The position numbers and the translations under genes were made by a program. A stretch of DNA of 64,000 nt. Origin: Georgenia ruanii (GTDB lineage: Bacteria; Actinomycetota; Actinomycetes; Actinomycetales; Actinomycetaceae). The notes beneath the pieces were generated by a model. That model did no database searches. It saw only the letters and a program-made list of their open reading frames with translations, and had not been told where the DNA came from. Of this stretch, positions 7,558 through 16,005 are shown one piece after another (within the stretch, counting starts at the first letter, position 1; each line of letters begins with the position of its first letter). The stretch is taken from NCBI RefSeq assembly GCF_009193175.1, contig NZ_VUKE01000001.1, positions 249,089 to 313,088 of the forward strand, in the 5' to 3' direction.

Positions 7558-7650
7558 CCGCGTCGCCACCCCGAGCCGCACATAACCGTCCAATCACGTC
7601 CGGTGGTGCGAAGATGGGGACCGAAACCGCCCGACGACCTGGAGCCGAAG

Positions 7651-8148
7651 ATGACGCGCCTGCAGCCGGCCAACCTCGCCCCCGACTTCACCCTGCCGGT
7701 CGCCGGCGGCGGCCAGATCGGGCTCGCCGACCTCCGGGCCCGTGGCGAGCGCGGCGTGATCGTCTACTTCTACCCCAAGGCCGCCACGCCCGGCTGCACC
7801 ACCGAGGCGTGCGACTTCCGCGACAGCCTCGCCGCCCTGGGCGGCGCCGGCTACGCCGTCGTCGGCATCTCGGCCGACCCGCTCCAGGACCTCGAGGCCT
7901 TCGCCGCCGACCAGCGCCTGACCTTCCCCCTCGCCTCCGACCGCGACCACGCCGTCGCCGAGGCCTACGGCACGTGGGGGCCGGTGACCTTCGGTGGTCG
8001 CACCTTCGACGGCGTGCACCGCTCGACGTTCGTCGTCAACCCGGACGGCACCCTGCGCAGCGCCCAGTACGACGTCGACCCCGTCGGGCACGTCGCCGCG
8101 CTGCGCCGCGACCTCGGGATCGACCAGCCCGCCCCCACCCAAGCCTGA
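7651..8148 (+). CDS. Bcp/PrxQ-type peroxiredoxin, copy 1
   Basis: Thiol peroxidase reducing H2O2 and organic hydroperoxides. The 165-residue protein has the AhpC/TSA fold with the PrxQ/Bcp signature PGCTTEACDFRD: peroxidatic cysteine C49 and resolving cysteine C54, the atypical 2-Cys spacing. Other conserved parts are FYPKAATPGC, GISADPLQDL and TFPLASD. The ATG at 7651 is taken because GGAG lies about seven bases upstream and the sequence before it is not family-like. A closely similar gene follows after 12 bases, evidently a tandem duplication. Confidence 0.9.
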   Translation: MTRLQPANLAPDFTLPVAGGGQIGLADLRARGERGVIVYFYPKAATPGCTTEACDFRDSLAALGGAGYAVVGISADPLQDLEAFAADQRLTFPLASDRDHAVAEAYGTWGPVTFGGRTFDGVHRSTFVVNPDGTLRSAQYDVDPVGHVAALRRDLGIDQPAPTQA

Positions 8149-8160
8149 TCGGAGACCCTC

Positions 8161-8637
8161 GTGCCGCGTCTCGCCCCGGGCGACCCCGCCCCGGCCTTCA
8201 CCCTGCCCGCCGCCGACGGCGGCGAGGTCTCCCTCGCCGCGCTGCGCCAGTCCGCCGACCGCGGCGTCGTCGTGTACTTCTACCCCGCCGCCGCCACCCC
8301 CGGCTGCACCAAGGAGGCGTGCGACTTCCGCGACAGCCTGGCCTCCCTCCAGGGCGCCGGGTACGCCGTCGTCGGCATCTCCCCCGACGGCGTGCAGAAG
8401 CTGGCGACGTTCGCCGCCGACGAGGGCCTGACCTTCCCGCTGGCCTCGGACACCGAGCACCAGGTGCTCGAGGCCTACGGCGCGTGGGGCGAGAAGAAGA
8501 ACTACGGGCGCACCTACACCGGGGTCATCCGCTCCACCGTCGTCGTGGACCCGGACGGCGCGGTGTCCCTCGCCCAGTACAACGTCCGCGCCACCGGCCA
8601 CGTCGCCCGGCTGCGCAAGCTGCTCGGCGTGGACTGA
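8161..8637 (+). CDS. Bcp/PrxQ-type peroxiredoxin, copy 2
   Basis: Second thiol peroxidase, 158 residues, GTG start with ggag just upstream, 12 bases after copy 1. Cysteines C49 and C54 fall at the same positions as in copy 1 within PGCTKEACDFRD, and most of the fold aligns block by block (VVYFYPAAATPGC, YAVVGIS, TFPLASD, GHVARLRKLLGVD). The copies differ most after residue 100 (WGEKKNYGRTYTG here, a form typical of Bcp; WGPVTFGGRTFDG in copy 1), so they may differ in partner or substrate. Co-transcription with copy 1 is likely. Confidence 0.92.
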   Translation: MPRLAPGDPAPAFTLPAADGGEVSLAALRQSADRGVVVYFYPAAATPGCTKEACDFRDSLASLQGAGYAVVGISPDGVQKLATFAADEGLTFPLASDTEHQVLEAYGAWGEKKNYGRTYTGVIRSTVVVDPDGAVSLAQYNVRATGHVARLRKLLGVD

Positions 8638-8650
8638 CCGGGGTCAGTCC
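8631..8650. terminator. palindrome spanning both stop codons
   Basis: ggactgacc (8631-8639) and ggtcagtcc (8642-8650) form a near-gapless palindrome that contains the stop codons of the peroxiredoxin gene (plus strand) and of the membrane-protein gene (minus strand). It may act as a compact two-way transcription end. Confidence 0.5.
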
Positions 8651-10149
8651 GACGGCGCCGGGCGCGTGGGCGTCGTCGAGGCCGGTTCCGGCCCGGTCGT
8701 GGGGGGCCCGTCGGTCCCTCCGGGCGGGCCGGTCGGCTCGGCCGACCCCGCCCCTCCGGCCGAGCCCGTCCCACCGGCGTCCGCCCCGGCCGGCGCCTCC
8801 GCCGCCGTCTCGGGCGGCACCGGCGGGTTGCTGAGCACCTCCGCGACCACGAGCACGAGCCCGGCGATCACGACGACGAGGAGCACTTCCCCCGGTGTCG
8901 GCCGGTTGAGGAGGAGGACGACCAGGGCGGCGAGGGCGATCACCACGACGCGGATGACCTGCCGGTACGTGGCGAGCGCACCGCCCACGCGTTCGCCGGC
9001 CAGTCCGCCGGGCGTGCCGCGCAACCGGCGGATGCGGTCCGTGCCGGAGCCGAGCGCCCGGCGCAGGCCGACCGCCGCCGCGGAGGGGCCGGTCAGGTAG
9101 GCCAGCGCCGCGACGATCACCGCGACGACGAAGACGGTGCGCAGCCCGGTGCGCAAGAAACGCACCAGCGTGTCGAACACCGCCGCCGCGGCCCCGCGCG
9201 GGAGCACGTTCGGGTTCACGGCACCGAGATAGACGGCGCGGGCGAACATGATCGCGAGAGCCAGCAGGAGCATCGCTGCCGCGACCCCGAGCCCGACGCC
9301 GACCAGGGCGCGCCGGTGCCGCGGCGCGAGGAGCACCCCCGCCGCGAGCACGACGAGCGTGACGATGGGCAGCGCCGTCCCGAGGGTGCTCAGCACCGAG
9401 AAGGCCGTCTGCGCCGCCGCGACGTTGTGGGCGAGGGTGTCGGACTGGTAGATGACGAACGACTTGTGGATCTCGGGAATCTGCGCGGCGATCGCCACGC
9501 CGCGGTCGACGAGGCGGGTCTTGACGAGGTCGATGAACGGGGCGAGGTCGATGCTGACGGCACCGTTGCTCACCTGCACGGCGCCGCCCTGCTTGCCGGT
9601 CATGACATTGACCAGCGCCTGGTGCACCTGGCGATTGGCCTCGGCCCAGAGCTGCGCGAACTGGGGCGAGGCGACGACGGTGTTGACCTGATCGGTGAGG
9701 AAGCCCTGGACACCGCTGGTGATCGGCGCCGCCAGCCCCTCCACCTTCGCCTGGACGGGCGGGGGCAGGTTGGTCTGGCCGGCCACGGTCGAGAGCATCT
9801 GCGAGGTCACGCCCTGGACGTCGAGCTCGGTGAAGACCGCGGCCGTGATCTGGTCCGCCATCGCCTTCTGCAGCCGCGGGTCGTCGATGACCGGGGCGAC
9901 CGTCTCGACGTAGGCGTTCGTGTTGGTCACCTGGGTGGCCAGCCACGTCGAGACCACGGACAGCGCCGCGAGCACGCACCCCAGCAGGACGACGAGCGTG
10001 GCGCCGACGTTGCGCAGGCGGCCCGGATGGCGGCGCCGCGCGGGCTCCGCCGTCTCGGTCCGGCGTTCGGCACGGAGCGCGGCCACCTCCGCGCGCAGGC
10101 GCTCGAGCTCACCGCGCTCGTCGGCGCCAAGCTGGGGCGTGACGCTCAT
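8644..10149 (-). CDS. large integral membrane protein with N-terminal coiled coil
   Basis: A 501-residue protein. Residues about 8-30 are heptad-like (ERGELERLRAEVAALRAERR), followed by a basic patch and a transmembrane helix (ATLVVLLGCVLAALSVVSTWL). About 200 residues of likely extracytoplasmic sequence come next (NTNAYVETVAPVIDDPRLQKAMADQ...), then four to five further helices, and a Pro/Gly/Thr-rich tail. Proteins of this plan are common in actinobacteria but have no assigned role that I know. It is the most distal of four minus-strand genes running from 11392 to 8644, and shares the region with a SHOCT protein, DUF6325 and an LAL regulator, so an envelope or stress role is possible. Confidence 0.7.
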   Translation of the reverse strand: MSVTPQLGADERGELERLRAEVAALRAERRTETAEPARRRHPGRLRNVGATLVVLLGCVLAALSVVSTWLATQVTNTNAYVETVAPVIDDPRLQKAMADQITAAVFTELDVQGVTSQMLSTVAGQTNLPPPVQAKVEGLAAPITSGVQGFLTDQVNTVVASPQFAQLWAEANRQVHQALVNVMTGKQGGAVQVSNGAVSIDLAPFIDLVKTRLVDRGVAIAAQIPEIHKSFVIYQSDTLAHNVAAAQTAFSVLSTLGTALPIVTLVVLAAGVLLAPRHRRALVGVGLGVAAAMLLLALAIMFARAVYLGAVNPNVLPRGAAAAVFDTLVRFLRTGLRTVFVVAVIVAALAYLTGPSAAAVGLRRALGSGTDRIRRLRGTPGGLAGERVGGALATYRQVIRVVVIALAALVVLLLNRPTPGEVLLVVVIAGLVLVVAEVLSNPPVPPETAAEAPAGADAGGTGSAGGAGSAEPTGPPGGTDGPPTTGPEPASTTPTRPAPSD

Positions 10150-10195: not shown

Positions 10196-10522
10196 TCAGG
10201 GGCCGAGGATCGCCCGTTTCTGGGTCTCGAACTCGTAGCTGTTGATCACGCCCTGGTCCCGGAGGGCGGCGAGCTCCTTGAGCTGGGCGATCTTGGCGTC
10301 CATGTCGCCGCCGGACGGCTCCGCCGGCTGCGCGGGCATCGGCTGCTGCACCTGCTGCGGCGCGTACTGCTGCTGCGGTGGTGGCGCGTACTGCTGCTGG
10401 GGCTCGTACTGCTGTTCCTGCGCGGCCCAGCGCCCCACCTGCCGGCGCGAGACCCGGTTGGACACGGCGGTCGCGGTGCCGGCCACCACGGCGGTCCTCG
10501 CGACACCTCGGATCAGTCCCAT
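10196..10522 (-). CDS. SHOCT-domain protein with Gln/Pro repeats
   Basis: A 108-residue protein in three parts: a small basic N-terminus (MGLIRGVARTAVVAGTATAV), a Q/P/Y-rich low-complexity middle with repeats of QQYAPP type, and a C-terminal SHOCT domain (IAQLKELAALRDQGVINSYE, then FETQKRAILGP). SHOCT is a short helical domain often at protein ends and thought to mediate oligomerisation. The ATG is preceded by AGGGAAGG. It lies between the large membrane protein (46 bases on) and DUF6325 (38 bases before), which suggests an operon. Confidence 0.85.
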   Translation of the reverse strand: MGLIRGVARTAVVAGTATAVSNRVSRRQVGRWAAQEQQYEPQQQYAPPPQQQYAPQQVQQPMPAQPAEPSGGDMDAKIAQLKELAALRDQGVINSYEFETQKRAILGP

Positions 10523-10560: not shown

Positions 10561-11025
10561 TCAGGCCGCCTTCTCGGTCGCGTCGAGCGCCGCAAGCACG
10601 GCCTGGACCGGGATCCGCCCGCTCGCCACGAGCTGGCCGCCCGACCGGCGGACCGCCGAGGCGAACGGCGCTGCCCAGACGTTCTCGTAGACGAGGATCC
10701 CGGCCGAGCTCCCGGGCTCGATGATCTTCGCGACCTCCTCGAGGTCGTCCTGGCCGACCAGCCCCGAGGACGCCCCCTCGAACACGCGGAGGTCCAACCG
10801 CCCGTCCCGGTCGACGTCGCTCAGGCTCATGCCGATCACCGAGCCGTCCTGCTCCTTGCGGACGAAGACGAAGTCGAAGATGCGGATGAGGCCGCGGTCG
10901 ACCAGGTCGACCAGCAGCGGGAAGGCCTCCCCCGTCATGCGGTTACCGGGAAACTCCACCACGATGTAGTCGATCGGACCGGTCTGGTCGAGCTGTTCAC
11001 GCTCGACCTGTTCCCGTTCGTCCAT
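10561..11025 (-). CDS. DUF6325 family protein
   Basis: A 154-residue acidic cytoplasmic protein of the DUF6325 type, related to the DUF1269-like group. Typical blocks are GPIDYIVVEFPGNRMTGEAF, LVDRGLIRIFDFVFVRKEQD and EPGSSAGILVYENVWAAPFA, ending in a small helical segment with LAALDATEKAA. The ATG at 11025 has GGAGGG upstream. Such proteins often neighbour SHOCT proteins in actinobacteria, as here. Their biochemical role is unknown; stress or envelope homeostasis is a guess from neighbours. Confidence 0.8.
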   Translation of the reverse strand: MDEREQVEREQLDQTGPIDYIVVEFPGNRMTGEAFPLLVDLVDRGLIRIFDFVFVRKEQDGSVIGMSLSDVDRDGRLDLRVFEGASSGLVGQDDLEEVAKIIEPGSSAGILVYENVWAAPFASAVRRSGGQLVASGRIPVQAVLAALDATEKAA

Positions 11026-11143: not shown

Positions 11144-11392
11144 TCACACCGGCGAGCCGGGCACCGGCAGGTGCACCCGCCGCACCTCGACGACGTCGAG
11201 GCACAGCGCGCGCAGCCGCGCCAGGAGCCCGAACAGCTCCGCCTGGTCGGCGACCGCCCCGACGAGCACCGTCGCAGCCGGCGCCGGCGTCACCGTGACG
11301 GCCCCCAGCTCCTCCAACGCCTCGTCGGGAACCGTGCCGAGCAGGCGGATCTCGTAGACGGTGGAGGCCGAAGGGTCGTGGTGCATGCCCAT
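11144..11392 (-). CDS. small protein with single [YF]EI-type domain
   Basis: An 82-residue protein consisting of one compact alpha/beta unit: VYEIRLLGTVP, then ATVLVGAVADQAELFGLLARL, then CLDVVEVRRVHLP. The same unit occurs twice in the gene at 14383-15018 on the other side of the LuxR regulator, most clearly in its first half (TILTTAPVDQAGLHELLARL). The ATG at 11392 has GGGAGGG just upstream; a second ATG six bases in is possible. It is the first gene of the minus-strand run through DUF6325, SHOCT and the membrane protein. I know of no named family for it. Confidence 0.7.
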   Translation of the reverse strand: MGMHHDPSASTVYEIRLLGTVPDEALEELGAVTVTPAPAATVLVGAVADQAELFGLLARLRALCLDVVEVRRVHLPVPGSPV

Positions 11393-11539
11393 CGGTCCCT
11401 CCCGCCCGGACGTCTCCCCGCACCGTGGGCCGGGCAGGTCGTCCCTCCTACCTTGAGACCTCACCCGCCGTGACACGTCACCCGCGCGGGACGATGGGGG
11501 CACGTCGTCACGGCACCCTCCCCAGTCCTCGACATCTGT

Positions 11540-11566
11540 CGCATAATGGGGTCGAACTGCCAGTTC
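11540..11566 (+). promoter_or_regulatory. possible promoter -10 and operator before the LuxR gene
   Basis: In the 328 bases between the divergent genes, cataat (11541-11546) resembles a -10 box and is followed by gaactg-c-cagttc (11554-11566), a perfect 6-1-6 dyad. The rest of the gap shows no further structure or gene. A role as operator for the LuxR protein is inference. Confidence 0.35.
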
Positions 11567-11720
11567 CCACACGGTGCGTCCCCCTGCCGCTCCAAGAGGT
11601 TCGCCGGTCCACGTGAGTTCGGTGCGTCCCGGCAGGGGGCCGCGGAGGTGCCGCAGGATGGGTGCACGAGACACGGCATCCCCTGCCCCCGGTCCCGGAG
11701 GCGCGACCGGACGGCGCGGG

Positions 11721-14396
11721 GTGACTGACCCGCGACTCACCATCCCGGCGCTGCCGCACGACGCGGTCGACCGGCCTCGGCTGCGCAAGCTGCTCGACGA
11801 GGGCGTCGAGGTGCCTCTGACGCTCGTGAGCGCACCGGCCGGGACGGGCAAGACCGTCCTCGCCGCCTCGTGGGCGGCCCGACGGCCGGCGCCCACGGCC
11901 TGGGTGACGATCGACGACAACGACGTGCGGGACGGCGCCCTGTGGCTCCTCGTCCGCGCGGCGCTGCACCAGCACGGCGTCGACGCTGCCGGCGAGCCGC
12001 CGGGGACCGGAGAGCCGGAGAGCACCCGCCTCTTCCTCACCTCCTTGGCCACCGCGGTCGCCTCCCGCCCCACACCGGTCACGCTCGCGCTCGACTGCGA
12101 GACCGCGCTCCCGCCCGACGCCGCCGCCGGCCTCGAGCTCCTCCTCCGGCGAGCCGCGGGCCGGCTGCGCCTCCTCCTGCTGACCCGGGCGGACCCGCTG
12201 CTTCCGCTCCACCGCTACCGGCTCGAGGGCTCGATCGACGAGGTCCGGATGGCCGACCTCGCCTTCACGACCGGCGAGGCCCGCGTCCTGCTCGGCCGTG
12301 CCGGCGTCAACCTCTCCGCGGCCGCGATGGAGTCCGTCATGGCGCGGACGCGAGGCTGGGCCGCCGGGCTGCGGTTCGCCGCCCTCACCCTGTCCCGGAG
12401 CACCGACCAGGACGCCGCCGCCAGAGCGCTGACGGGCGAGCGCGGGACGGTGGCCGACTACCTGCTCGCGGAGGTCCTCGACACCCAGCCGCCGCAGGTC
12501 CGCGCGACGCTGCTCAGCACGAGCATCGTCGACCTGCTGCGGCCCGGTCTGGTCGAGGTGCTCGCCGGGCCGCGCGCCCAGCACGACCTCGACCGGCTGG
12601 CCAGCGACAACGTCTTCCTCGACGAGATCCCCGAGCACCCGGGGACCTACCGGCTGCACCCGCTCTTCCGCGAGCTCCTGCGGGCCCAGCTGGCCTACGA
12701 GGCCCCCGAGCGAGTGACGGCCCTCGACCGGGTCGCCGCCCGTTGGCTGGCCATCAACGACCTGCCCGTCGAGGCGGTCCGGCACGCGATGGCGGGCGGC
12801 GCCTGGGAGGACGGGTGCCGGTACGCGGTGGATAACCTCGCCGTGGCCCGGCTCCTGACCGAGCGGCCACCGGGCCAGCTGCGCGCCCTGCTCGCCGACC
12901 TGCCCGACGAGGCCGACGGCCCGCACGTGTCGCTCGTGCGAGCGGCGCAGACCATCCTTGCCCACGACCCCTCCGGCGCCGCATGTCACCTGGAGCGGGC
13001 GCGCGAGGTCCTCGCCGGCGCGCCGGCGCCGCCGTCGGCGCAGCTCACCCTCGCCCTGGTCGACGGGTTCCGGGCCCGTCTCGCTGGCGACGCGAGAGCA
13101 GCACTGTCGGCGCTCCGGGGCGCGGAGGGCCTGGTCGAGCAGGTCCCCGACCACACCCAGTCGCGGGACGCGGTCGCCCTCCTCACCTGGGGCAAGGGCT
13201 CGGCGCTGCTGCTCGCCGGCCGGATCGACGCCGCGGTCGAGTCGTTCACGGCCTGCGTCGACCGTGCGGGCCGGGGCGGCCCCGAGACGGGGTGGCCGGT
13301 GATCGACAGCCTGGGCCAGCTCGCCCTGATCGCCGCCATGCGCGGGCGGCTCCAGCGCGCCACCAACCTGGCCGACCGGTCGCTGGCGCTGCGGCACCGC
13401 GCAGCGATCCCGGCCCGGTACGGGCCCTGCGCAGCGGAGATCGCCCTGGCCTGGGCGTCCACCGAGGCCTACGACCTCAGGGCCGCGCGACGCCACCTGG
13501 ACCGGGCGGCCGAGGCGGTCACCGCCGGCGACGACCCCCTGCCGTGGGCGATGTTCGCCGTCGTCACCGCCCGTGCCCGGCGCGCCCGCGGCGACATGGA
13601 GGGTGCCCGGCGGGTCCTGGACGAGGCCATCACGACGGCGCCGCTGCCCGAGTGGATGCGTGACCGCCTCCGCCTCGAGCTCGCGATCCTCGACATCGTC
13701 AGCGGGGAGCCGGCGCGGGCCCTGCGCGTCGTGGCCGACGTGGCCGACGCGGACCTCGTCCCGGAGGCAACGCTCGTGGCGAGCCGGGCCCGGCTGGCGA
13801 GCGGTGCCGAGGTCACCGACCTCGTCGCGATCGACGAAGGCGCCACGCTCGCCACCCGTGTCGACCTCTGGCTCGTCGAGGCCTCTCGCCGACTCGTCCA
13901 GGGGGACGAGCGGGCGGCTCACCGCGCGCTCGGGCGCTCGCTCCGGCTGGCGGCGCCGGAGACGCTCAGGCGCCCGTTCTACGAGGCTCCCGCCGACGTG
14001 CGTCGCCTGCTGCGGGCGAGCGGCGACCTCGCCGGAGAGCACGGGTGGCTCAGCCCGGGCGCGGCCCGACCGTCGGACGGCAAGCGGGGCGAGCGGGCGC
14101 GGCAGGGGCGCGACGCCCGCGCGGTGCCGGGCGCGACACGGCCGGGCAGCCGGGCGCCGGCGGCGCCCTCCCTCGACGGCGGCGGTGACGGCCCGGTCGA
14201 GCCCCTCACGCCGAAGGAGCTGGAGGTGCTCGGGCACCTCGCCGGGCTGCTGACGACCGAGGAGATCGCCGGGGCGATGTTCGTCTCGGTGAACACCGTC
14301 CGGACACACGTGCGCAACATCCTTCGCAAGCTCACGGTGTCCCGGCGCAACGAGGCGGTGCGCCGGGCCCGGGCGCTGCACCTCATTGCCGCGTGA
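11721..14396 (+). CDS. LAL (MalT-type) LuxR-family transcriptional regulator
   Basis: A large ATP-dependent activator of 891 residues. Order of domains: N-terminal STAND-type NTPase with Walker A SAPAGTGKT (about 37-45), ATPase blocks (WVTIDDND, LLLLTRADPLLPLHRYRL, FRELLRAQLAYEAPERV), a helical TPR-like middle, a charged linker near 790-830, and a C-terminal LuxR HTH (LTPKELEVLGHLAGLLTTEE, then VSVNTVRTHVRNILRKL). This is the MalT architecture. The GTG at 11721 is chosen because residues upstream are not family-like; the frame is open to 11574. It stands between genes carrying the [YF]EI-type domain and converges with one of them by a 14-base overlap. Inducer unknown. Confidence 0.88.
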   Translation: MTDPRLTIPALPHDAVDRPRLRKLLDEGVEVPLTLVSAPAGTGKTVLAASWAARRPAPTAWVTIDDNDVRDGALWLLVRAALHQHGVDAAGEPPGTGEPESTRLFLTSLATAVASRPTPVTLALDCETALPPDAAAGLELLLRRAAGRLRLLLLTRADPLLPLHRYRLEGSIDEVRMADLAFTTGEARVLLGRAGVNLSAAAMESVMARTRGWAAGLRFAALTLSRSTDQDAAARALTGERGTVADYLLAEVLDTQPPQVRATLLSTSIVDLLRPGLVEVLAGPRAQHDLDRLASDNVFLDEIPEHPGTYRLHPLFRELLRAQLAYEAPERVTALDRVAARWLAINDLPVEAVRHAMAGGAWEDGCRYAVDNLAVARLLTERPPGQLRALLADLPDEADGPHVSLVRAAQTILAHDPSGAACHLERAREVLAGAPAPPSAQLTLALVDGFRARLAGDARAALSALRGAEGLVEQVPDHTQSRDAVALLTWGKGSALLLAGRIDAAVESFTACVDRAGRGGPETGWPVIDSLGQLALIAAMRGRLQRATNLADRSLALRHRAAIPARYGPCAAEIALAWASTEAYDLRAARRHLDRAAEAVTAGDDPLPWAMFAVVTARARRARGDMEGARRVLDEAITTAPLPEWMRDRLRLELAILDIVSGEPARALRVVADVADADLVPEATLVASRARLASGAEVTDLVAIDEGATLATRVDLWLVEASRRLVQGDERAAHRALGRSLRLAAPETLRRPFYEAPADVRRLLRASGDLAGEHGWLSPGAARPSDGKRGERARQGRDARAVPGATRPGSRAPAAPSLDGGGDGPVEPLTPKELEVLGHLAGLLTTEEIAGAMFVSVNTVRTHVRNILRKLTVSRRNEAVRRARALHLIAA

Positions 14397-15018
14397 CTTC
14401 CGCGGGCCCCGACCTCGCTTCCCCCGGGCGCCGCCACACGTCCGGCGACGCCCGGCTGGGCGCCGGTGTCGCCCGCACGCTCTCGACCTCGGCGCCGGGG
14501 ACGGCGATCGCCCTGAGGACGTCGGAGAGGCTGCCCGCCTCCGCCTCCACCACCACGACGAGGTGCCCTGACACCGTGGTCGCGCGCTGGTGGAGGGCGG
14601 CCAGCACGGCCGGGCTCGGCGCGCCCCCGACGTGGATCTCGTAGGCCACCTGCCCGGAGGGGGGCGCCGCACCGGCGCCGCCGGCCACGCTGACCTCGTC
14701 GAGACCGCGGGCCACGGTCACCTCGCCCAGACCGCCGGCCACGGTCACCTCAGGCAGACCGTCGGCTCCGGCACGCGTGGCCAGAGCCGTCGTCTCGGGT
14801 GGCGCCGCGCCGGCCCCCGCCGCGGGGCCCAGCTCGAGGAGCTCGATGCCGAAGTCCGTGAGCCGCGCCAGCAGCTCGTGCAGGCCGGCCTGGTCGACCG
14901 GGGCGGTCGTGAGGATCGTCTGCGGCGGGAGCTCCACGACCGTCATGCCCGGGCGGCACGCATGCCGGACCGCGTCTGCCGCACCGGTGAGGTGGATCTC
15001 GAACGTCTCCCGGGTCAT
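14383..15018 (-). CDS. protein with two [YF]EI-type domains
   Basis: A 211-residue protein made of two copies of a small alpha/beta unit. The N-terminal copy (about 4-66) reads FEIHLTGAAD ... TILTTAPVDQAGLHELLARL ... IELLELGP. The C-terminal copy (about 120-185) reads YEIHVGGAPS ... LVVVVEAEAGSLSDVLRAI ... VESVRAT. The linker contains three imperfect repeats (LPEVTVAGG, LGEVTVARG, LDEVSVAGG). A single-domain relative is encoded at 11144-11392. The 3' end overlaps the convergent LuxR regulator by 14 bases. Start ATG follows a weak gggcatg context. No known function; association with the LAL regulator is positional. Confidence 0.7.
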   Translation of the reverse strand: MTRETFEIHLTGAADAVRHACRPGMTVVELPPQTILTTAPVDQAGLHELLARLTDFGIELLELGPAAGAGAAPPETTALATRAGADGLPEVTVAGGLGEVTVARGLDEVSVAGGAGAAPPSGQVAYEIHVGGAPSPAVLAALHQRATTVSGHLVVVVEAEAGSLSDVLRAIAVPGAEVESVRATPAPSRASPDVWRRPGEARSGPAEVTRQ

Positions 15019-15330
15019 GCCCACGCGCCTTCTGTTCAAAGATGGTCGCCGGCTCGCGTCGCGGCGCGCGCCGCGGAGCCTTCTTCCCCAGGCTGCGCGC
15101 CACCACGGCACGCCGGATCCCCCGGGCGGGGTGAGTCCGAGGCGTCGGGGGCCGGCGCGTCCGCGCCCCGGGGTGGTCTCACCCGCGTGGGGTGATGCCG
15201 CCCGGTCAGGGCCTCCCGACGATGGTCGTGGCGACAGGCCCGACGATGGTCGTGGCGACGGTCGCGGCACCGGGCCGGGCCGGTCGGGCGAGCGCCGGGC
15301 CGACCGGGCCACCCGAGGGAGGGACCGACC
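15019..15330. other. divergent intergenic region with a 21-bp direct repeat
   Basis: This 312-base gap separates the two-domain gene (minus) from the DUF7144 gene (plus). The unit starting cccgacgatggtcgtgg occurs at 15215-15235 and again at 15239-15259 (24-base period), so both copies lie on the same face of roughly two helical turns, as for a tandem regulator site. Nothing else is evident. Confidence 0.45.
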
Positions 15331-15768
15331 ATGGGCGAGCAGACCACCTCGCAGTACCAGGCCCCCACGGAGCCCCAGCGGGCGCGCGCGTGGGCGGCCG
15401 GCCTCATCACCTTCGCCGGCGTCATGATGATCATGATCGGCGCCTTCCACATCTTCACGGGGCTGGTCGCGCTCTTCGAGCGCACGTTCTACCTGACCAC
15501 CCCGAACTACCTCATCACCGTCAACACCACGACGTGGGGGTGGATCCACATCGCCCTCGGCGTCGTCGTGCTCCTCGCCGGCATCGCCCTGCTCACCGGG
15601 CAGGAGTGGGCGCGCGTGGTCGCCGTGGTGCTCGCCGTGCTCAGCGCGATCGCCAACTTCACGTTCATCCCGTACTACCCCATCTGGTCGCTGACGATCA
15701 TCGCGCTCGACACCTTCGTCATCTGGGCGCTGGTCTCGCACGGCGACGAGTACACGAGCACCGACTGA
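15331..15768 (+). CDS. DUF7144-family four-helix membrane protein
   Basis: A 145-residue integral membrane protein with four helices: GLITFAGVMMIMIGAFHIFT, WGWIHIALGVVVLLAGIALL, VVAVVLAVLSAIANFTFIP and a last helix LTIIALDTFVIWALV. The signature features are FHIFTGLVALF, TWGWIHIALGV and FIPYYPIWSL, as in the actinobacterial DUF7144 family. The start has GAGGGAGGG upstream. It is probably controlled with the neighbouring LAL/DUF6325 genes, since DUF7144, DUF6325 and SHOCT proteins commonly keep company. No transport motif is visible. Confidence 0.85.
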   Translation: MGEQTTSQYQAPTEPQRARAWAAGLITFAGVMMIMIGAFHIFTGLVALFERTFYLTTPNYLITVNTTTWGWIHIALGVVVLLAGIALLTGQEWARVVAVVLAVLSAIANFTFIPYYPIWSLTIIALDTFVIWALVSHGDEYTSTD

Positions 15769-15880: not shown

Positions 15881-15965
15881 GCGCGAGTGGCGTAACTGGC
15901 AGCCGCGCCAGGTTTAGGTCCTGGTGCCTTCGGGCGTAGGGGTTCGAGTCCCCTCTCGCGCACCA
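15881..15965 (+). tRNA. tRNA-Leu (anticodon TAG), CCA encoded
   Basis: Class II tRNA with a long variable arm. Acceptor GCGCGAG (15881-15887) pairs with CTCGCGC (15955-15961), discriminator A at 15962, encoded CCA at 15963-15965. The anticodon stem CCAGG/CCTGG encloses TTTAGGT. The variable arm is TGCCTTCGGGCG, and the T-arm is GGGG TTCGAGT CCCC. Confidence 0.95.
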
Positions 15966-16005
15966 CCCCGGCGCGCCGGCCGCGCCCTCCCGCGGCCGCG
16001 CACCG

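Follow-up and report, generated by a model that had tools for sequence, protein, structure and literature searches.

In Escherichia coli, the half-site core recognised by MalT, GGA(T/G)GA, overlaps the −35 element (quoted in PMC7567727), and MalT is kept inactive by protein partners, according to PMC10427625. In Actinoplanes sp. SE50/110, Droste et al. (2020; PMC7567727) described the motif TCATCC-5 nt-GGATGA, which they likened to the E. coli MalT box and whose 3′ end precedes 17 start sites by 34.4 nt in a maltose-regulated region of 51 genes. Deletion and overexpression of the MalT-like regulator ACSP50_3915 established that it activates about 40 genes of that region, none for maltose use and one encoding a class II glutamine amidotransferase (PMC7567727), so that activation of promoters carrying this dyad by a MalT-like LAL regulator is experimentally shown in Actinoplanes. 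Here, we analysed a window of 64,000 nucleotides from Georgenia ruanii (contig NZ_VUKE01000001.1, positions 249,089 to 313,088), in which the gene of a MalT-type LAL regulator is flanked by two genes, YEI-1 and YEI-2, coding for a small domain that we call YEI. The YEI family, its predicted fold and genomic linkage, the operator dyad, the promoter spacing and the co-variation of dyad and recognition helix were computed. On balance, we favour a reading of the locus as a local MalT-type LAL unit with three dyad promoters and with YEI as a LAL-controlled partner of the regulator.

YEI-1 is a single unit and YEI-2 a double one, and both open reading frames lie where the first-pass annotation had placed them. 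Its pairing of YEI-1 with the first half of YEI-2 is borne out by a local alignment score of 69, where shuffled sequences average 25.1 (z 8.9, 0/2000 shuffles), and these two units are clearly homologous and close relatives, both scoring as a-type with subtype models. The order of motifs that had been read in all three units ([YF]EI[HR][LV]xG, a T-x-L strand, DQxxLxxLLxRL and a final strand) holds for YEI-1 and half 1 and fails in part for half 2 (YEIHVGG...AGSLSDVLRAI...EVESV), which retains [YF]EI[HR][LV]xG and the final E-V strand, with neither the T-x-L strand nor DQxxLxxLLxRL present. The pairwise similarity of half 2 to the other two units is within chance (z 1.7 and 1.4), which by itself speaks against a family of three units. 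However, half 2 matches the family profile (domain E 8e-13; 2e-11 in a further profile search) and reaches 26.6 bits with the b-type model as opposed to 5.7 with the a-type model; by profile and predicted fold it is a second subtype (“b”) of the YEI family.

AlphaFold2 predicts the order strand-helix-strand-strand-helix-strand for YEI-1 (pLDDT 77, pTM 0.49) and for both halves of YEI-2 (pLDDT about 95 in half 1 and about 78 in half 2, with a low-confidence linker), i.e., a predicted beta-alpha-beta-beta-alpha-beta ferredoxin-like fold common to the three units, where differing structures had been named as grounds for abandoning the family. In Kribbella, Nocardioides and Intrasporangium, an a and a b unit are encoded by two consecutive genes, and in Georgenia sp. 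SYP-B2076 the counterpart of YEI-2 is split into two genes (overlapping or adjacent); because relatives carry the units as two genes, the best interpretation of YEI-2 is that of an a and a b gene joined into one through a linker. The linker itself (14690–14800) holds a short in-frame repeat, G-L-x-E-V-[TS]-V-A (GLPEVTVAGGLGEVTVARGLDEVSVAGG), which is partly missing from G. thermotolerans.

For YEI, a Pfam scan of 50 members (24736 models) and searches of NCBIfam, PHROGs and PADLOC gave nothing above noise, no PDB chain was matched by profile, and no relative was found among viral contigs. Toxin–antitoxin and defence readings were dropped, as there was no noteworthy PADLOC match and the promoter architecture suits ordinary regulation. 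YEI is a domain without a curated family, as its initial description as unnamed had it, and a previously undescribed companion of MalT-type regulators.

This companionship is close to constant. In a phylum-wide sample, YEI is present in 43/246 genomes, and counting every clear match, a LAL gene (E<1e-20) lies within 6 kb of 49/55 YEI units, as against 0/20 control regions from the same genomes; it lies within 1.5 kb in 42/55, and upstream on the same strand in 38/55. A profile built for closer relatives favours the LGLELxEVRR subfamily, and linkage statistics were therefore drawn from the phylum sample. In a second set, from another order, 11 of 13 YEI regions contain a LAL gene. Annotated plasmids show the link as well: in Deinococcus (two), Ca. 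Chlorohelix, Acaryochloris and Streptomyces, YEI has a “LuxR C-terminal-related transcriptional regulator” no more than 4 kb away, which directly precedes YEI on both Deinococcus plasmids and the Ca. Chlorohelix plasmid, while YEI is labelled “hypothetical protein” or absent from the gene table. The Deinococcus genes (L189:4501-4707 and L190:4501-4698), directly 3′ of the LuxR regulators, are among those missing from it. The link is thus found again on plasmids from the Deinococcota, Chloroflexota and Cyanobacteriota, and YEI is a near-constant genomic companion of MalT-type regulators in several phyla. Fusions of LAL and YEI were not seen in the loci retrieved, for which no large dedicated search was made.

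The regulator of the window combines an N-terminal nucleotide-binding ATPase (Walker A GTGKT), a MalT-like TPR region of borderline score (PF17874, E 1.7e-10, 41.2 bits against a cut-off of 45; 45.5 bits with frame neighbours) and a C-terminal LuxR helix-turn-helix (PF00196, GerE, E 2.1e-13). The NCBIfam MalT model matches residues 54–606 (E 1.5e-64) with 218 bits, below the equivalog cut-off of 537, which makes the regulator a relative and not an orthologue. It shares with E. coli MalT the STAND ATPase, TPR region, LuxR helix-turn-helix and half-site core, and differs in that the E. coli boxes are described as core repeats and not as an inverted dyad, and in the lack of maltose genes at this locus.

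An inverted repeat lies upstream of YEI genes, with the 16-bp form TCACCACATGTGGTGA in one clade and TCAYCC-N5-GGRTGA in the clade of the window. When the full 64 kb were scanned for this dyad with at most one mismatch and a −10 at the right distance, only three places were obtained, ahead of YEI-1, YEI-2 and DUF7144 respectively and each matched by a site in G. thermotolerans, the nearest named relative (94% identity across the YEI unit). These putative operators (O1–O3, Table 1) depart from the consensus at 0–1 positions, each with its −10 at +23; for O1 read towards the LAL gene, no −10 was found at the right distance. More generally, a −10-like hexamer ([TGC]ANNNT) begins 23 or 24 bp downstream of the dyad in 34/47 cases and at any other single offset in at most 3/47, the spacing of the 16-bp class having been noticed before the published motif was consulted and the spacing test on both classes having been made afterwards. 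The distance of 34.4 nt in Actinoplanes likewise leads one to expect a −10 some 23 nt past the dyad.

The dyad is rare. The strict 17-mer occurs six times in this 4.4-Mb genome and four times in Georgenia sp. SYP-B2076, and the reversed pattern in neither. All four SYP-B2076 sites fall within the LAL/YEI cluster, preceding YEI-1, a DUF2254 gene divergent from LAL, DUF7144 and YEI-2. Across 11 genomes, 24 of 60 sites are no more than 10 kb from a YEI (expected 0.36), and the one 16-mer of the G. ruanii genome stands ahead of a second YEI/LAL pair. Among 249 genomes of a second order, YEI is present in 6/7 of those with at least three strict TCATCC-N5-GGATGA sites and in 49/249 overall, which is supportive, though few genomes are concerned. 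Finally, the dyad changes with the regulator: among loci that are related and hence not independent counts, the recognition helix NT[VLM]RTHT accompanies 16-bp dyads (TCACCAC-type) in 8/8 cases and 17-bp dyads in 0/33, and two further 16-mer loci (L181, L184) agree with this pairing. Because dyad and spacing match the Actinoplanes motif and the recognition helix changes with the dyad, we regard the YEI genes, most probably, as targets that the LAL controls directly.

LALs with the helix TVKGHNR (L082, L090, L092, L095, L096, L108, L111) have another conserved block upstream of YEI, roughly AACACTTCGGTGTCTGTNCGYCAAYACCG...TAYGCT, made up of ACTT-GGTGT, then CAAYACC, then TAYGCT at the equivalent place, and perhaps representing a third kind of operator that is arranged in the same way.

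In the mechanism that we propose, the LAL, switched on by some signal, would bind the dyads of GGRTGA half-sites, which overlap the −35 element or lie just ahead of it, and recruit RNA polymerase to three promoters, those of the YEI-1/DUF6325/SHOCT/membrane-protein operon, of the YEI-2 gene and of the DUF7144 gene. YEI, made under LAL control and retained as a neighbour of the LAL gene across several phyla, would be the dedicated partner of the regulator, feeding back on its activity as MalY and other proteins do on E. coli MalT, and the membrane proteins would be the output of the unit. MalY is a different, larger protein and not a 60-residue ferredoxin-like domain. Since E. coli MalT is kept inactive by protein partners (PMC10427625), feedback by a small protein would be a natural mechanism. 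With YEI genes behind the predicted DNA site of the regulator and YEI and LAL as companions, the cluster appears to form a single, self-contained unit of regulation, in which YEI is probably either a partner or the main output of the LAL.

Several points weigh against this reading. The presence of the dyad in 56/120 regions upstream of YEI (which include b units inside operons, mostly without dyad) versus 162/2738 control windows (p 3e-33) is partly circular, because the dyad was first recognised at YEI promoters, and like the linkage counts it overstates independence, since the loci are related by descent and p-values are descriptive; the −10 spacing, genome-wide rarity, helix co-variation and published motif are not circular. 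Many YEI-LAL pairs, with TVKGHNR-helix LALs and others, have neither dyad. Binding of O1–O3 by the LAL of the window, with activation of YEI-1, YEI-2 and DUF7144, is what computation and the Actinoplanes precedent would predict, and contact between YEI and LAL, or feedback, is plausible and a further step from the evidence, as YEI could be a mere product of the regulator's activity.

The latter case is the main rival: YEI would be an output only, i.e., a LAL-activated effector such as a small cytoplasmic or envelope stress protein that makes no contact with the LAL and stays adjacent through joint inheritance. The dyad does precede YEI genes just as it precedes DUF7144, DUF6325, DUF2252, DUF308/HdeD, PLDc_N-SHOCT, ion channel, phospholipase D and other genes elsewhere. 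However, YEI accompanies the LAL more consistently than these other targets, including in the plasmid loci of Deinococcota, Chloroflexota and Cyanobacteriota, where neither DUF6325 nor DUF7144 is annotated nearby. We therefore read YEI as a probable part of the switch, since it stays with the LAL across phyla while the other targets vary by clade, and hold an exclusive role as output to be possible, if less likely. The kinds of genes behind the dyad lend the module an envelope or stress flavour and no more.

In a variant of the partner model, YEI would be a ligand-binding sensor similar to ACT/RAM domains, binding a small molecule and presenting the signal to the LAL. Its size and predicted beta-alpha-beta-beta-alpha-beta order do resemble the ACT/RAM domains of Lrp, IlvH and HisG, and the a+b double, or an adjacent pair, could form an ACT-like dimer. 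The likeness goes no further than a common fold: Foldseek and VIA-align returned generic ferredoxin-like matches only (S6 permutants, HMA, Lrp/IlvH; best Foldseek E 4.5e-3, Z<8), too weak and unspecific to be counted as family evidence, no ACT match was obtained for any of 50 members (Pfam, E 0.1), the lack of sequence similarity extends to every PDB chain, and no known ligand-site motif was found in YEI. A sensor of this kind thus appears unlikely.

It is also conceivable that the dyad is bound by another regulator and that its linkage to LAL is incidental, given the linked YEI-LAL pairs lacking a dyad and the fact that LAL binding is here deduced. Against this, promoters with the identical motif require a MalT-like LAL in Actinoplanes (PMC7567727), the type of dyad follows the LAL recognition helix, and every strict site of SYP-B2076 is inside the LAL cluster, which leaves this explanation very improbable. 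A chance resemblance of three small open reading frames beside an ordinary LuxR gene, to which only the pairwise scores of half 2 lend colour, is already contradicted by the family profile, by the predicted fold and by the conservation of YEI in different phyla, and can be disregarded.

Table 1. Genes, YEI units and predicted promoter elements of the LAL/YEI cluster (window coordinates)
Feature	Position	Strand	Basis or counterpart
TM501, 501-aa predicted membrane protein without Pfam family	8644..10149	−	Pfam scan
SHOCT protein	10196..10522	−	Pfam PF09851, E 2.9e-7, 30.5 bits, over cut-off of 27
DUF6325 protein, downstream of YEI-1, same direction	10561..11022	−	Pfam PF19850, E 2.6e-13, 50.7 bits, cut-off 23.4
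YEI-1, single a-type YEI protein, 82 aa	11144..11392	−	Open reading frame, start with ribosome-binding site, family profile, predicted fold
−10-like hexamer CAAGGT, 23 bp downstream of O1	11450..11455	−	
Putative operator O1, TCGTCCCGCGCGGGTGA, read towards YEI-1, in YEI-1/LAL divergent gap	11478..11494	−	G. thermotolerans equivalent L033:7872
LAL (MalT-type STAND) LuxR regulator, about 891 aa	11721..14396	+	GerE, TPR_MalT and MalT models; start from gene call
YEI-2, double YEI protein, 211 aa (a-type half, low-confidence linker, b-type half)	14383..15018	−	
YEI-2 half 2, b-type unit, diverged	14470..14643	−	Profile, predicted fold, subtype models
YEI-2 half 1, a-type unit	14830..15003	−	Profile, subtype models
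−10-like hexamer CAGCCT, 23 bp downstream of O3	15090..15095	−	
Putative operator O3, TCACCCCGCCCGGGGGA, one mismatch, towards YEI-2	15118..15134	−	G. thermotolerans equivalent L033:4153
Putative operator O2, TCACCCGCGTGGGGTGA, towards DUF7144	15179..15195	+	G. thermotolerans equivalent L033:4093
−10-like hexamer GACGAT, 23 bp downstream of O2	15218..15223	+	
DUF7144 membrane protein	15331..15768	+	Pfam PF23636, E 1.2e-46, 158 bits, cut-off 27

From left to right (8.6–15.8 kb), the cluster reads TM501, SHOCT, DUF6325 and YEI-1 on the minus strand, LAL on the plus, YEI-2 on the minus and DUF7144 on the plus strand, with two divergent gaps, YEI-1|LAL and YEI-2|DUF7144. As TM501, SHOCT, DUF6325 and YEI-1 all lie on the minus strand with small gaps, they probably form a single operon read right to left, with TM501 as its probable last gene; TM501 is seen again with DUF6325, SHOCT and LAL in other genera. 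Pfam and NCBIfam matches agree with the names that the first-pass annotation gave to the LAL, DUF6325, SHOCT and DUF7144 neighbours. Its view of the set as a module, and of YEI as a likely target of the regulator, is well supported by the linkage and, as a prediction from sequence, by the MalT-type dyad with its fixed promoter geometry; the “stress or envelope” label depends solely on what kinds of gene follow the dyad (ion channel, DUF308/HdeD, PLD, PLDc_N-SHOCT, DUF2252, DUF2254). Of the company it expected homologues to keep, the LuxR genes proved regular, while DUF6325, like SHOCT and DUF7144, is a frequent and not a constant companion of YEI-LAL. Convergent with the YEI-1 operon is a tandem pair of homologous peroxiredoxin-like genes (7603–8637), and between DUF7144 and a TetR regulator a tRNA-Leu-like gene (~15882–15966), both named by eye.

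The locus resembles the Actinoplanes region in its MalT-type LAL activator beside its targets, in the dyad at the −35 region, in targets that are mostly unnamed or membrane proteins, and in a class II glutamine amidotransferase gene, which is a target in Actinoplanes and is directly preceded by a strict dyad here (C2:166589 in the G. ruanii genome; genes outside the window are codon-bias calls made in this analysis, except where record annotation is cited). The Actinoplanes region differs in being far larger (51 genes, with 24/51 products unannotated) and in containing arginine and amino-acid genes. Further dyad-plus-−10 promoters of the G. ruanii genome lie at C33:21992-22008 (two-way, between glycosidase-like and transporter-like genes), C2:165276 and C11:127667, with look-alike sites in G. 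thermotolerans at C24:2706, C28:189212 and C42:44298; these three G. ruanii sites may mark outlying members of the regulon.

Most of the abundant LAL/MalT-type regulators have neither a known signal nor known targets. A near-constant neighbour together with a promoter signature (dyad, 23–24 bp, −10) makes local LAL targets predictable from sequence in many genomes, and links DUF6325, DUF7144 and SHOCT, along with further orphan membrane proteins, with a single regulator. We suggest, tentatively, that YEI may be a dedicated co-regulator (an anti-activator or signal subunit) of a widespread MalT-type STAND class found in at least four phyla, in which, of the a and b forms, one unit would bind the regulator and the other read the signal. 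YEI offers a direct test for a dedicated protein partner of STAND switches and, if this suggestion is true, would be a previously unseen component in the control of those of the MalT type.

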